NCBI RefSeq assembly: GCF_020731355.1
Contig: NZ_JAJFZK010000018.1
Coordinates: 1-35,227, forward strand
Source: Bacillus sp. REN16
GTDB taxonomy: Bacteria > Bacillota > Bacilli > Bacillales > Bacillaceae_L
DNA: 35,227 nt
Direction of reading: 5' to 3'
The translations under genes and the position numbers were made by a program. The notes beneath the pieces are model-generated. The model saw nothing but the letters and a program-made list of their open reading frames with translations. It was not told where the DNA came from and searched no databases. Positions 8,036 through 17,061 of this stretch are shown here, one piece after another (position 1 is the first letter of the stretch; each line of letters opens with the position of its first letter).

Positions 8036-8166
8036 ATCAAAAACGCCTTGGCGTTTTAGCCGCCCAGATTTTTTCGAGCTTGATCGAAAAGTTTCCTTTG
8101 AAAATCTGTGGCATCCGCCGAAGGCTTTTTTTTATTCGATAGGTCCCATCCTATCGAATAAAAAAA
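8036..8166 (-). repeat. Repeat family 1, short copy on the minus strand
   Basis: Read on the minus strand this begins with a 17-bp hairpin (arms 8150-8166 and 8127-8143, loop TCCCAT on the plus strand). The GCC box AGCCTTCGGCGGATGCC (8110-8126) follows, then a CAGATTTT/AAAAATCTG outer stem, and it ends with a perfect AAAACGCC/GGCGTTTT hairpin (8040-8057) and TGATT. The AAAGAC/GTCTTT and CCCAC/GTGGG arms of the longer copies are missing. On the plus strand the 8040-8057 hairpin may help end the rsmI transcript. Confidence 0.8.
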
Positions 8167-8187
8167 GCTTCTCTGCACGAGAAGCTC
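8155..8187 (-). terminator. Terminator of abrB
   Basis: On the minus strand AGCTTCTC (8179-8186) pairs with GAGAAGCT (8166-8173) around a 5-base loop, followed by a T run. It lies directly next to the first hairpin of the repeat copy. Confidence 0.88.
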
Positions 8188-8202
8188 CTTTTATATCATC
8201 TA

Positions 8203-8487
8203 TTATTTTACAGCTGTTAGGTTATCTTGAAGTTCTTTAAGGATTTGTTCAGCACCTTCACGGCTAAGAACGATCTTACCATTAGCAAGAGTGAAATTGT
8301 CATCAGAAATTTCACCTGTAATTTGGCAAGTCATATTTGGCTTGTATTTCTTTAAAATGATTTTGTCATCGTCAACATAAATTTCAAGAGCATCTTTCTC
8401 AGCGATATCTAATGTACGACGAAGCTCGATAGGGATAACAACACGACCTAATTCATCAACTTTACGAACAATACCTGTAGATTTCAT
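8203..8487 (-). CDS. abrB: Transition-state regulator AbrB
   Basis: A 94-residue DNA-binding global regulator that represses post-exponential genes (competence, biofilm, sporulation, antibiotics) during growth. The N-terminal SpoVT/AbrB swapped-hairpin domain (MKSTGIVRKVDELGRVVIP, about residues 1-50) is near identical to B. subtilis; the C-terminal half mediates tetramerisation. The start at 8487 has AGAGGAG just upstream on the minus strand; the longer frame from 8505 would begin inside that site. It is the only minus-strand protein gene here, lying between rsmI and metS as in B. subtilis. A sigma-A promoter and a Spo0A box lie upstream. Confidence 0.97.
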   Translation of the reverse strand: MKSTGIVRKVDELGRVVIPIELRRTLDIAEKDALEIYVDDDKIILKKYKPNMTCQITGEISDDNFTLANGKIVLSREGAEQILKELQDNLTAVK

Positions 8488-8538
8488 TTGTTTTTCTCCT
8501 CTCAATATTTGTTTCTATTTATCTCTCTATATCGTCAA

Positions 8539-8549
8539 TTTTCGACAAA
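8539..8549 (-). promoter_or_regulatory. Spo0A box in the abrB leader
   Basis: On the minus strand the sequence is TTTGTCGAAAA, an exact match to the extended 0A-box consensus. It lies about 8-18 bases downstream of the predicted start of transcription. B. subtilis abrB is repressed by phosphorylated Spo0A bound at 0A boxes just downstream of its promoters; the arrangement here implies the same control. Confidence 0.82.
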
Positions 8550-8563
8550 TTGATTTCTAGATA

Positions 8564-8592
8564 ATAATATCAAGATTTCCATTTAACGTCAA
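8564..8592 (-). promoter_or_regulatory. Sigma-A promoter of abrB
   Basis: On the minus strand TTGACG (8587-8592) and TATTAT (8564-8569) are separated by 17 bases. Transcription would begin near 8557, about 70 bases before the start codon. Confidence 0.8.
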
Positions 8593-8967
8593 TCACTTTT
8601 AGCTACAATTCTTATAAAATATGTATAAAAATGGTACATGGTGTCTCATAACAGAAGGGTTTGATGGATTCTTCCACATTATAAATCTACTATTTTTGGA
8701 AAAAGACTGTACCATAATAGTGGAAAAACTGTAAAATAAACTTGCCAAAAATCTATAAATTTAAGTCGGATTTTGTCGAATAATGAATATGGATGCTTTT
8801 TGATCGCTGTCGAATTTTCTTTTCACTTTAATTTCCATATATAAAATCTGACTTGCAGACGATGTGTCAGATTTAACGTTGGCTGCGTGATTCGCCTTAC
8901 AAGCGCTTGCGCTTTTCTCGTGCTTTAGGTATATTTTGAAGATATAATAGGAATAGATGAATTCGAG
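8593..8967. other. Intergenic region between abrB promoter and metS leader
   Basis: No gene is supportable here. It holds the two 0A-like sites (8771-8817) and an inverted pair TGGTACA/TGTACCA (about 8632-8638 and 8709-8715). A possible metS promoter has -10 TATAAT at 8943-8948, but its -35 (TGCTTT, 8921-8926) is poor. The stretch near 8890-8920 weakly resembles the end of repeat family 2 and may be a remnant. Confidence 0.5.
8771..8817 (+). promoter_or_regulatory. Two further 0A-box-like sites upstream of abrB
   Basis: TTGTCGAA at 8773-8780 is a full core match and TGTCGAA at 8808-8814 a 7-base match, in the same orientation and 35 bases apart. They are more than 200 bases from the abrB promoter and about 130 bases before a possible metS promoter. 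Their role is unknown. Confidence 0.45.
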
Positions 8968-9213
8968 CTTTAACTTTTTTCAGTCCGCAAAAATCTTGGT
9001 AGGGACGAACTCAAAAAAATGTATCCAATACAGTAGGGGTAATCTCTATTGAAAAAAGTTAAAGCCTCCGGCGGATGCCTCAGATTTTCAAAGGAAGTTT
9101 TTCGAGCTTAGGATCAAAGACTAAGAGCGCCACGTCCTGTGGCAACGTCTTTGTGACCCACATCATGTGGGCCTAAAAAATCTGGGCGCAAATACGCCGT
9201 GGCGCATTTGATT
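8968..9213 (+). repeat. Repeat family 1, full copy in the metS leader
   Basis: The order is: a 15-bp perfect stem CTTTAACTTTTTTCA (8968-8982) with TGAAAAAAGTTAAAG (9050-9064) around a 67-base loop; the box AGCCTCCGGCGGATGCC (9063-9079); an outer stem AGATTTT/AAAATCT; AAAGAC (9116-9121) with GTCTTT (9147-9152) enclosing GCCAC/GTGGC; CCCAC/GTGGG; and the tail hairpin AAATACGCC-GT-GGCGCATTT with TGATT. It ends one base before AGAGGAGG, the metS ribosome-binding site. It therefore lies in the metS leader if transcription begins upstream of it. Confidence 0.85.
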
Positions 9214-9229
9214 AAGAGGAGGTTTACCG

Positions 9230-16330: not shown

Positions 16331-16341
16331 TTTAGTTTTGT

Positions 16342-16370
16342 TTGACGTTCGGTGATTTTTTTGGTATACT
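16342..16370 (+). promoter_or_regulatory. veg promoter 2 (sigma-A)
   Basis: TTGACG (16342-16347) and TATACT (16365-16370) with a 17-base spacer. Transcription would begin about 16 bases before the veg start codon. Confidence 0.75.
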
Positions 16371-16393
16371 GATAAATAGTGAGGTGGAGTGAA

Positions 16394-16663
16394 ATGGGAA
16401 AAACTTTGCTTGATATTAAACGGTCTTTAGATACAAATTTAGGTAAGCGACTTACCTTAAAGGCCAATGGTGGCCGTAGAAAGACAATAGAGCGCTCAGG
16501 AGTGCTCGCCGAAACGTACCCATCCGTATTTGTGATAGAACTAGACCAGGATGAGAATTCATTTGAGCGGGTTTCTTATAGCTATGCTGATATCCTTACA
16601 GAAACCGTTCAATTAACCTTCTTTGATGAGACATCCGGGAACGTAGCGATAAGTGGGCAGTAG
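16394..16663 (+). CDS. veg: Biofilm-stimulating protein Veg
   Basis: An 89-residue small basic protein of the Veg/DUF1021 family. In B. subtilis Veg is very highly expressed and stimulates biofilm genes by countering SinR through an unknown route. The sequence [20 protein letters not shown] and [16 protein letters not shown] is nearly identical to B. subtilis. ATG 16394 has AGGTGG at spacing about 6; the longer frame from 16379 begins before that site. Two tandem sigma-A promoters agree with strong expression, and two terminator-like hairpins follow. Confidence 0.95.
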
Positions 16664-16687
16664 ACTTCATTGTTTACTGCTTTTTTA
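16657..16687 (+). terminator. Terminator of veg
   Basis: GCAGTAGAC pairs with GTTTACTGC (one G-U), followed by TTTTTT. The first arm includes the stop codon. Confidence 0.85.
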
Positions 16688-16697
16688 TTTTGTCCGA

Positions 16698-16735
16698 AAA
16701 ACGTGGTACTTTTTCATAAGTGTCACGTTTTTTTG
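16698..16735 (+). terminator. Second hairpin after veg
   Basis: AAAAACGTG and CACGTTTTTTT pair around a long loop. It could be a back-up terminator or act in either direction. Confidence 0.6.
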
Positions 16736-16746
16736 TTTAAGAATAT

Positions 16747-16792
16747 TGCGTCGTATTCTATGGATTTGCGTCCCCACGAGAAATTATGCGTC
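16747..16792 (+). repeat. TGCGTC repeated every 20 bases
   Basis: TGCGTC occurs at 16747, 16767 and 16787, exactly 20 bases apart. The last two are followed by YCCAC-like sequence. No function is evident. Confidence 0.6.
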
Positions 16793-16874
16793 TCCACTGT
16801 TTAAAAAAAAGCAAATAGGATAATATTTGTTAATATAACAAACCCTTTTTATCCAAACACTAAGTATGTCGTAG

Positions 16875-17061
16875 ATAACTTTATTCAGCTAGGACTGAAT
16901 AAAGTTATAGCCTCCGGCGGATGCCACAGATTTTTTAACGGAAGTTTTTCGAGTGTATGATCAAAGACTAAGAACGCCACGGCCTGATGTCTTCGTCTTT
17001 GTGACCCACCTCGTGTGGGCCTAAAAAAATCTGGGCGCAAATACGCTGGGGCGTATTTGAT
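16875..17061 (+). repeat. Repeat family 1, full copy in the sspF leader
   Basis: It starts with a perfect 14-bp hairpin ATAACTTTATTCAG/CTGAATAAAGTTAT around CTAGGA, then AGCCTCCGGCGGATGCC (16909-16925). The outer stem is AGATTTTTT/AAAAAATCT, AAAGAC (16963-16968) pairs with GTCTTT (16995-17000), and CCCAC pairs with GTGGG around CTCGT. The perfect AAATACGC/GCGTATTT tail hairpin and TGAT close it, followed by the AAAGGGGG ribosome-binding site of sspF. The rest of the 16735-17078 gap has no recognisable gene. Confidence 0.87.

Follow-up and report, generated by a model that had tools for sequence, protein, structure and literature searches.

A BOX/bcr-like hairpin element of Bacillus sp. REN16, probably mobile, with an exchangeable Bacillaceae-1 RNA module and a site-private 5' hairpin

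The stretch of DNA analysed here, which is called the window in the following, comprises 35,227 nucleotides of Bacillus sp. REN16 (contig NZ_JAJFZK010000018.1, positions 1 to 35,227) and contains three copies and one remnant of a dispersed, hairpin-rich element (Table 1). Copy 1 lies between an open reading frame (ORF) that we take to be rsmI-like from its position and a presumably abrB-like ORF on the opposite strand, copy 2 is found upstream of an ORF assumed to be metS-like, and copy 3 directly precedes a gene which is presumably sspF-like. A first-pass annotation had reported three copies in these places, and their ends had to be shifted by no more than a base or two. It had also mentioned one tail fragment; the one found here consists of the left arm of the 5' hairpin (a half-hairpin) and the tail, as left behind by an internal deletion.

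Table 1. Copies of the element in the window, their parts and neighbouring features.
Feature	Positions	Strand	Score (bits)	Remarks
Remnant	3348-3398	+		internal deletion; left arm (half-hairpin) and tail
ORF, presumably rsmI-like	7141-8028	+		assigned by position
Copy 1, short form	8035-8166	-	74.4 (covariance model)	without Bacillaceae-1; between ORFs 7141-8028 and 8203-8505
Tail hairpin of copy 1	8035-8057	-
Box of copy 1	8110-8125	-		GCCTTCGGCGGATGCC
5' hairpin of copy 1	8126-8166	-		left arm shares bases with the T-run that follows a terminator-like hairpin; right arm with matching A-run
ORF, presumably abrB-like	8203-8505	-
Promoter-like stretch with TATAAT	8924-8951	+		just upstream of copy 2; conserved in five aligned relatives (one base different in one)
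Copy 2, long form	8968-9213	+	178.9 (model, 9064-9213)	open 5' domain; upstream of ORF 9230-11179
Box of copy 2	9064-9079	+		GCCTCCGGCGGATGCC
Bacillaceae-1 RNA (RF01690) in copy 2	9105-9171	+	78.0
Tail hairpin of copy 2	9190-9213	+
ORF, presumably metS-like	9230-11179
Copy 3, long form	16875-17062	+	157.7 (model, 16910-17062)	compact 5' hairpin
Bacillaceae-1 RNA (RF01690) in copy 3	16952-17019	+	42.8

From 5' to 3', the element consists of a 5' hairpin, a 16-base box, an outer stem, an inner slot and a tail hairpin ending in TTTGAT; it has an overall length of about 130 to 250 bases and a hairpin near each end. The 5' hairpin comprises up to 23 base pairs, is highly variable in sequence and is either compact or equipped with an open loop domain of around 50 to 75 bases. 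The outer stem is formed by GCC(A)CAGATTTT / AAAATCTGGGC and is switched at three pairs, on both sides, to the CGATTTTT / AAAAATCG type in 12 to 13 of 30 long copies; the tail hairpin is formed by AAATACGCC / GGCGTATTT and is followed by GAT. The inner slot contains TTTTTCGAGC / GCTCGAAAAA in the short form, which is a short hairpin of the TTTTCGA..TCGAAAA type in copy 1, and the RNA family Bacillaceae-1 (RF01690) in the long form. The common order of parts noticed in the first-pass annotation therefore holds for hairpin, box, outer stem, inner part and tail hairpin, but the inner parts themselves differ between the copies. Copy 1 has no Rfam match at gathering score and is not a member of Bacillaceae-1. 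The first-pass annotation had missed that the inner part of copies 2 and 3 is a catalogued RNA family and that the inner part is interchangeable. Bacillaceae-1, whose gathering cut-off is 35 bits, accounts for 67 nucleotides in the interior of these two copies only, out of a carrier of around 190 to 250 bases; the Rfam scan of the window at gathering score matched Bacillaceae-1 and tRNA only, leaving the box, outer stem and hairpins of the carrier unmatched. No ORF of at least 80 amino acids is listed inside the three copies. A pairing between box and tail, which was proposed by RNAfold and by RNAalifold of the short copies, was rejected, since paired changes preserve the local tail hairpin, while the box-tail pairing is lost where the tail changes, for example in locus L017.

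The family is large, real and far from chance, and numbers around 90 copies. When two mismatches at most were allowed, the box GCCTYCGGCGGATGCC was found 93 times in the 4.64-Mb genome, but only once in the reversed (uncomplemented) control, and the tail pattern with up to three mismatches gave 83 genome matches compared to none in the control. A covariance model reaching from box to tail (R1), which was built from an alignment of 30 long copies and includes Bacillaceae-1, gave 101 genome matches at E <= 0.001, of which about 30 are long and about 60 short copies, the rest being mostly Bacillaceae-1 alone; the genome-wide search suggested in the first-pass annotation thus reaches far beyond the copies of the window. 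For the analyses of arms and gene context, 78 copies of this genome (30 long and 48 short) were fetched and parsed. In the 30 long copies, 97.5% of the box-to-tail cells are paired, compared to 94.0% in shuffled alignments and 36 to 50% (maximum 49.9%) when the partners were slid against each other. Changes on both sides of a pair affect 47 cells, compared to 17.6 in shuffles, whereas the number of further pair types does not exceed that of the shuffles (18 versus 18.4). These paired substitutions, on an excess of which the first-pass annotation had made its proposal depend, point to conserved folding.

Comparison with eight genomes of the same genus (G001 to G008) revealed that the copies are absent from matching sites of close relatives, as far as these can be aligned. 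Copy 1 is missing in all seven alignable genomes (G008 is unaligned), copy 2 in all five (G003, G006 and G008 are unaligned) and copy 3 in all eight. The window copies are hence absent from every alignable same-genus genome, which argues that the element moves. The site of the remnant is filled in G003, G004 and G005 and empty in G001, G002, G006, G007 and G008. Furthermore, relatives carry copies in the same 40-kb stretch at places that are empty in the window, and at one position of this region, site c, the insertions of G003 and G005 are located at two different points. The first-pass annotation had suggested a structured RNA or a small non-autonomous mobile element, naming the bcr repeats as a precedent only, and both halves of this suggestion hold: the empty sites speak for mobility and the paired substitutions for folding.

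A denser record was obtained for G005, which is 96 to 97% identical to its sister genomes G004 and G007 over the window region. Twenty loci were taken, one of which (L250) gave no parsed copy, so that 19 long G005 copies could be compared. At these 19 loci, G004 is empty at ten and has a short copy at six and a long copy at two, with one locus not found; G007 is empty at ten, short at five and long at two, with two loci not found, and one of its empty sites (L240) retains a few bases resembling a remnant. The ends of the element are T|AAC... on the left and ...TTTGAT on the right: at site a, removal of AAC...TTTGAT from the G005 allele restores the junction of the empty G007 allele, and in a burst of similar copies in genome G110, eight of nine loci start with (TTT)AAC (L295 lacks the left part) and eight of nine end with TTTGAT (TTTTAT in L294). 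Inspection of the filled and empty pairs by eye gave no consistent target-site duplication; a duplication of three to five bases (TAA, GATA) fitted well at single sites, but was rejected because it is inconsistent across all of them.

The same insertion is present in a sister genome at nine of the 19 G005 loci, and at seven of these nine (L236, L238, L243, L246, L247, L251 and L253), the place of the Bacillaceae-1 of G005 is taken by the short hairpin in one or both sisters, a rate that is biased upwards by the selection of loci that are long in G005. In L236, a rare variant (TCAGCGG) beside the slot is kept between the sisters, and at site c, the long copy of G005 and the short copy of G007 have a nearly identical 5' hairpin. 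Bacillaceae-1 is not confined to the inner slot, as it is found elsewhere within the inner part of the same carrier (L042, L174 and L175) and between 5' hairpin and box (L060 and L097). It also occurs in other repeat frames, namely in genome G047, where the five copies read share the flank adjacent to the module, in L036/L038/L177/L063 and in L314/L315. G008, by comparison, has only short copies among the BLAST matches listed. We infer from these data that Bacillaceae-1 is an exchangeable module entering hairpin repeats, the alternative being conversion between copies.

Several side observations were made as well. The inner slot of Bacillus sp. V3B (L115:5794-5849 and L116:4964-5019, both on the minus strand) contains another structured insert, two hairpins of which include GGA, and its interpretation by eye as a reversed Bacillaceae-1 was abandoned, as it has no Rfam match at E <= 0.5. 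Two Bacillaceae-1 matches are located about 130 bases apart in G038 (L172:2593-2854), and in G047, a match to the group II intron family D1-D4-3 (L167:2812-3180) starts about 130 bases after a Bacillaceae-1 copy. An extra insert in the region of the tail hairpin is present in L085, L097, L146 and L157, two Psychrobacillus loci among them, and two tandem flavin mononucleotide (FMN) riboswitch matches were found in Psychrobacillus (L097:6364-6772, minus strand). A second dispersed-looking sequence, recognised by eye and of the TCTAGCTTCAGGCGCC ... GCGCTTGCGCTTTTCT type, is located at about 24220-24340 and at 8893-8925 of the window; a frame of this kind carries Bacillaceae-1 in G047. The tRNA matches of the window (35086-35227, minus strand) run into its end.

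The 5' hairpin differs from the remainder of the element in that its arms follow the insertion site. On its outer side, the left arm consists of flank sequence; for instance, TTTTAA at site a is already present in G001 and G002, whose allele is empty. The right arm, which is located inside the element beside the box, matches this flank-derived left arm. At site c, the right arm of G003 ends with GCGTTAAA and matches the flank TTTAACGC, which is also found in the window, whereas G001, which is empty and 93% identical, has TTTAATGC. In copy 1 of the window, the A-run before the box matches the T-run of the terminator at a site that is empty in seven relatives. When left arms were searched for all 78 copies, the mean match was 10.9 of 12 bases, compared to 9.4 with right arms swapped between copies; among the 53 right arms that deviate from the consensus, 66% find 11 to 12 of 12 complementary bases upstream, but only 4.2% do so with swapped arms. 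The preferred explanation of this matching is template switching during replication, a process that makes and repairs perfect stems according to PMC8794818; selection for pairing is the alternative.

The copies are strongly tied to gene orientation. A co-oriented ORF follows 69 of the 78 copies, and in 49 of these 69 cases, the distance from the element end to the ORF start is 35 bases at most. A co-oriented upstream ORF is present for 62 copies, its end being about 10 bases or less away from the 5' hairpin in 29 of them, and 17 of the 78 copies show both a close upstream ORF end and a close downstream ORF start, so that the element is often placed between a stop codon and the start region of the next ORF. 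In tandem gene contexts, the element points in the direction of the genes ('++') in 56 cases and in the opposite one ('--') in 3; the ORFs used here were called by length only. Long and short copies behave alike, with 26 of 30 and 43 of 48, respectively, in sense with the downstream ORF, and the Rfam strand of Bacillaceae-1 is likewise in sense in 26 of the 30 long copies. Copy 2 directly follows a conserved promoter-like stretch and should therefore form the leader of the metS-like gene. An orientation directed by replication, as expected for single-strand transposition, was considered because of the extreme strand counts within contigs. In G006, where the chromosome is a single contig, the direction of replication is shared by 20 of 26 full copies (counted by eye, with the origin taken from the position of the window ortholog), a proportion similar to the gene-strand bias of Bacillus. 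For this reason, the explanation was dropped, and it seems to be transcription, not replication, to which the orientation is linked.

The explanation we favour, with a probability of roughly 80%, is that of a BOX/bcr-like mobile element which is non-autonomous, has a hairpin close to either end and is strongly co-oriented with genes; its inner slot contains a short hairpin in some copies and Bacillaceae-1 in others. Most copies would be read within an mRNA leader or an operon spacer, and copies inserted against transcription would have been selected away. The element would be moved by an enzyme acting in trans, for which a single-strand, hairpin-recognising transposase is a first, unproven guess. 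Bacillaceae-1 may enter resident short copies either through an insertion of its own or through conversion of short tracts from one copy to another. The 5' arms would acquire their match upon insertion or later, when template switching in replication lets the arm inside the element copy the local flank.

Several observations weigh against this explanation. The loci read, for which the ends of insertion sequences were not surveyed, contained neither an autonomous copy nor a transposase whose ends would match. The spacers of L235 and L251 are occupied in the window genome although G004 is empty, so that emptiness may in some cases reflect loss or conceal repeated insertion; both loci had been considered as young insertions with target-matched arms and were dropped as proof of age for this reason. 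By eye, a decayed element-like stretch was seen elsewhere in the spacer upstream of sspF in G001 and G002, and its different place indicates that spacers are hit repeatedly. The timing of arm matching is mixed, as the arms of L253 match better in G005 than in G004 and those of L251 better in G007 than in G005. A scan for promoters upstream of the copies revealed no excess (54 of 78 versus 51.6 in shuffles), and transcription of the copies is therefore inferred from gene context. Finally, apparent module differences could be produced by misassembly, to which repeats in draft genomes are prone; the rare variants kept beside the slot, as in L236, argue against this.

Among the other explanations, it would be conceivable that the copies are cis-regulatory leader RNAs, similar to riboswitches or attenuators, that are vertically kept upstream of certain genes. 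The sense orientation of long and short copies, the proximity of the downstream ORF starts and the conserved folding agree with such a role; however, copies that are missing at matching sites of close relatives, an inner module that differs at fixed sites and an Rfam scan of the window that returned only Bacillaceae-1 and tRNA at gathering score make it very unlikely. The complementary 5' arms could also arise if the right arm served as a guide that pairs with and thereby selects the target. In favour of a guide, every G110 copy that retains its left part shows AAA in front of the box and TTT in front of AAC, but 64 of 78 distinct 8-base arm ends occur only once among 198 distinct copies (all fetched DNA, sister loci included), and arms that are mostly private to their site argue against a guide which a parent copy had passed on. 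Ten unusual arm ends that were looked up each occur once among the 198 copies, with no parent of the same arm seen, and some copies with consensus arms, L237 and L240, are located at partly unmatched targets and have incompletely matched arms. Selection of the target by the right arm is thus improbable. The view that Bacillaceae-1 is a unit of its own, a mobile RNA module entering the loops or edges of hairpins in unrelated repeats, is compatible with the favoured mobile element and falls only somewhat short of an even chance. It would account for the module in the inner slot, at other carrier positions and in other repeat frames as well as for its difference at seven of nine shared loci; short-tract conversion from long copies would spread the module just as well, though, neither ends nor a duplication are defined for it, and the 19 loci had been chosen as long in G005. 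A bolder version is more doubtful: tentatively, Bacillaceae-1 might be a second-order mobile RNA module homing into several hairpin repeats across Bacillales, rather than a conventional small-RNA gene, and the 5' hairpin of the carrier might be rebuilt at each landing site from the local flank and thereby be tailored to its target.

It is also unlikely, although a little less so than target selection by the right arm, that the element is a REP-like substrate of a REP-associated tyrosine transposase (RAYT). A RAYT-like ORF (L034:909-1445, minus strand), which matches NF047646 with 71.8 bits, below the cut-off of 80, is preceded by a stand-alone Bacillaceae-1 (L034:1496-1562, plus strand) at a distance of 50 bases from its start; a broken match to a Y1 transposase (G000:C23:242198-242533) is found about 120 bases from a short copy, and the lack of a consistent target duplication and the hairpins near both ends would also suit such an enzyme. 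However, Y1 transposases are present in five of seven genomes searched and missing in G003 and G008, both of which carry copies, and in G006, a distance of over 100 kb separates the two Y1 matches from the 33 matches to the element or to Bacillaceae-1. A tblastn search of 318 loci with the RAYT-like protein gave L034 only, but this search reaches close relatives only and missed the IS200-like genes in L309 and L310. Neither a GTAG nor a CGTC tag was seen at either end of the copies inspected by eye. The Bacillaceae-1 of L034 has no match in plasmids, and no relatives of RAYT could be confirmed in viral contigs. Genes for reverse transcriptases (PF00078) gave zero to three matches per genome and no lead. 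Of eight loci of this genome with an unpaired box or tail, five were inspected and look like truncated copies, and the ORFs listed for two such loci contain no recognisable transposase. The link to RAYT or Y1 enzymes is thus a lead only.

The element is not restricted to the genus. A scan of named genomes for the box gave at least 116 loci, 56 of which have the element architecture by pattern and comprise 65 copies; nine of these 65 hold Bacillaceae-1 in the inner slot among the matches listed. The hosts that were checked, among the matches listed, belong to the Bacillales and include Siminovitchia, Fredinandcohnia, Lysinibacillus, Psychrobacillus, Ureibacillus and Bacillus timonensis. BLAST with copy 2 matched 20 of 60 relatives, including eight of eight in the genus, and model R1 matched 31 of 120 genomes of the order, many of the matches being Bacillaceae-1 alone. 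If the favoured explanation is correct, RF01690, which is listed as an unexplained small-RNA gene, becomes part of mobile repeats, and its sense orientation bears on the question of its disputed strand. Fixed sites with and without the module would provide natural pairs for testing the effect of the RNA on the neighbouring gene, and the many copies constitute a natural record of the formation of perfect hairpins at insertion sites.

A literature search, for which papers under subscription were mostly out of reach, revealed no description of the carrier or of Bacillaceae-1 as a repeat module. Bacillaceae-1 has been presented as a structured RNA whose role is not known (Weinberg et al. 2010, PMC2864571), and in a further paper, its strand is called uncertain and the reverse complement is said to fit a CsrA site (PMC4333381). 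Copies 2 and 3 contain this RNA above the gathering score, but it makes up only their inner 67 bases, and copy 1 lacks it. With regard to miniature inverted-repeat transposable elements (MITEs), the element is likewise small, has no coding capacity, is present in many copies and is strongly base-paired. Unlike in MITEs, its two ends, AACTT... and ...TTTGAT, do not form an inverted repeat (judged by eye in G110), each end having its own hairpin instead, and no target-site duplication was seen by eye. The REP/RAYT systems consist of dispersed hairpins whose movement is attributed to tyrosine transposases (PMC3733652), and the stand-alone Bacillaceae-1 beside a RAYT-like gene is reminiscent of them; the element differs by the absence of a visible GTAG or CGTC tag, by its larger, modular structure and by an association with RAYT that is not general. 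Template-switch hairpins, for which one event builds or repairs a perfect stem (PMC8794818), resemble what would happen at the 5' hairpin, except that the process would have to recur here at the same end of a mobile element.

Further parallels are found among the repeats of other bacteria. The bcr1 to bcr3 repeats of the Bacillus cereus group are described in PMC3446304 and PMC6542083 as MITE-like intergenic repeats, bcr elements having 100 to 400 bp, which are often located in untranslated regions or operon spacers; bcr1 is said to be restricted to the B. cereus group and has TTTAT motifs, and the element is likened to these repeats by kind and not by sequence. The best analogue is the BOX element of Streptococcus pneumoniae, a composite repeat with predicted stem-loops if transcribed, whose inner module can be absent or repeated; according to PMC3049150, BOX is transcribed in places, is judged as parasitic and non-autonomous and in one case is composite with T-box riboswitches. 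This comparison is based on architecture only and not on the sequences of boxA, boxB and boxC. In contrast to BOX, the inner module of the element is an RNA family that also occurs outside of it and that differs at fixed sites, and the co-orientation with genes is strong. Taken together, the element is BOX/bcr-like, and its new points are the exchangeable RNA module and the site-private hairpin.

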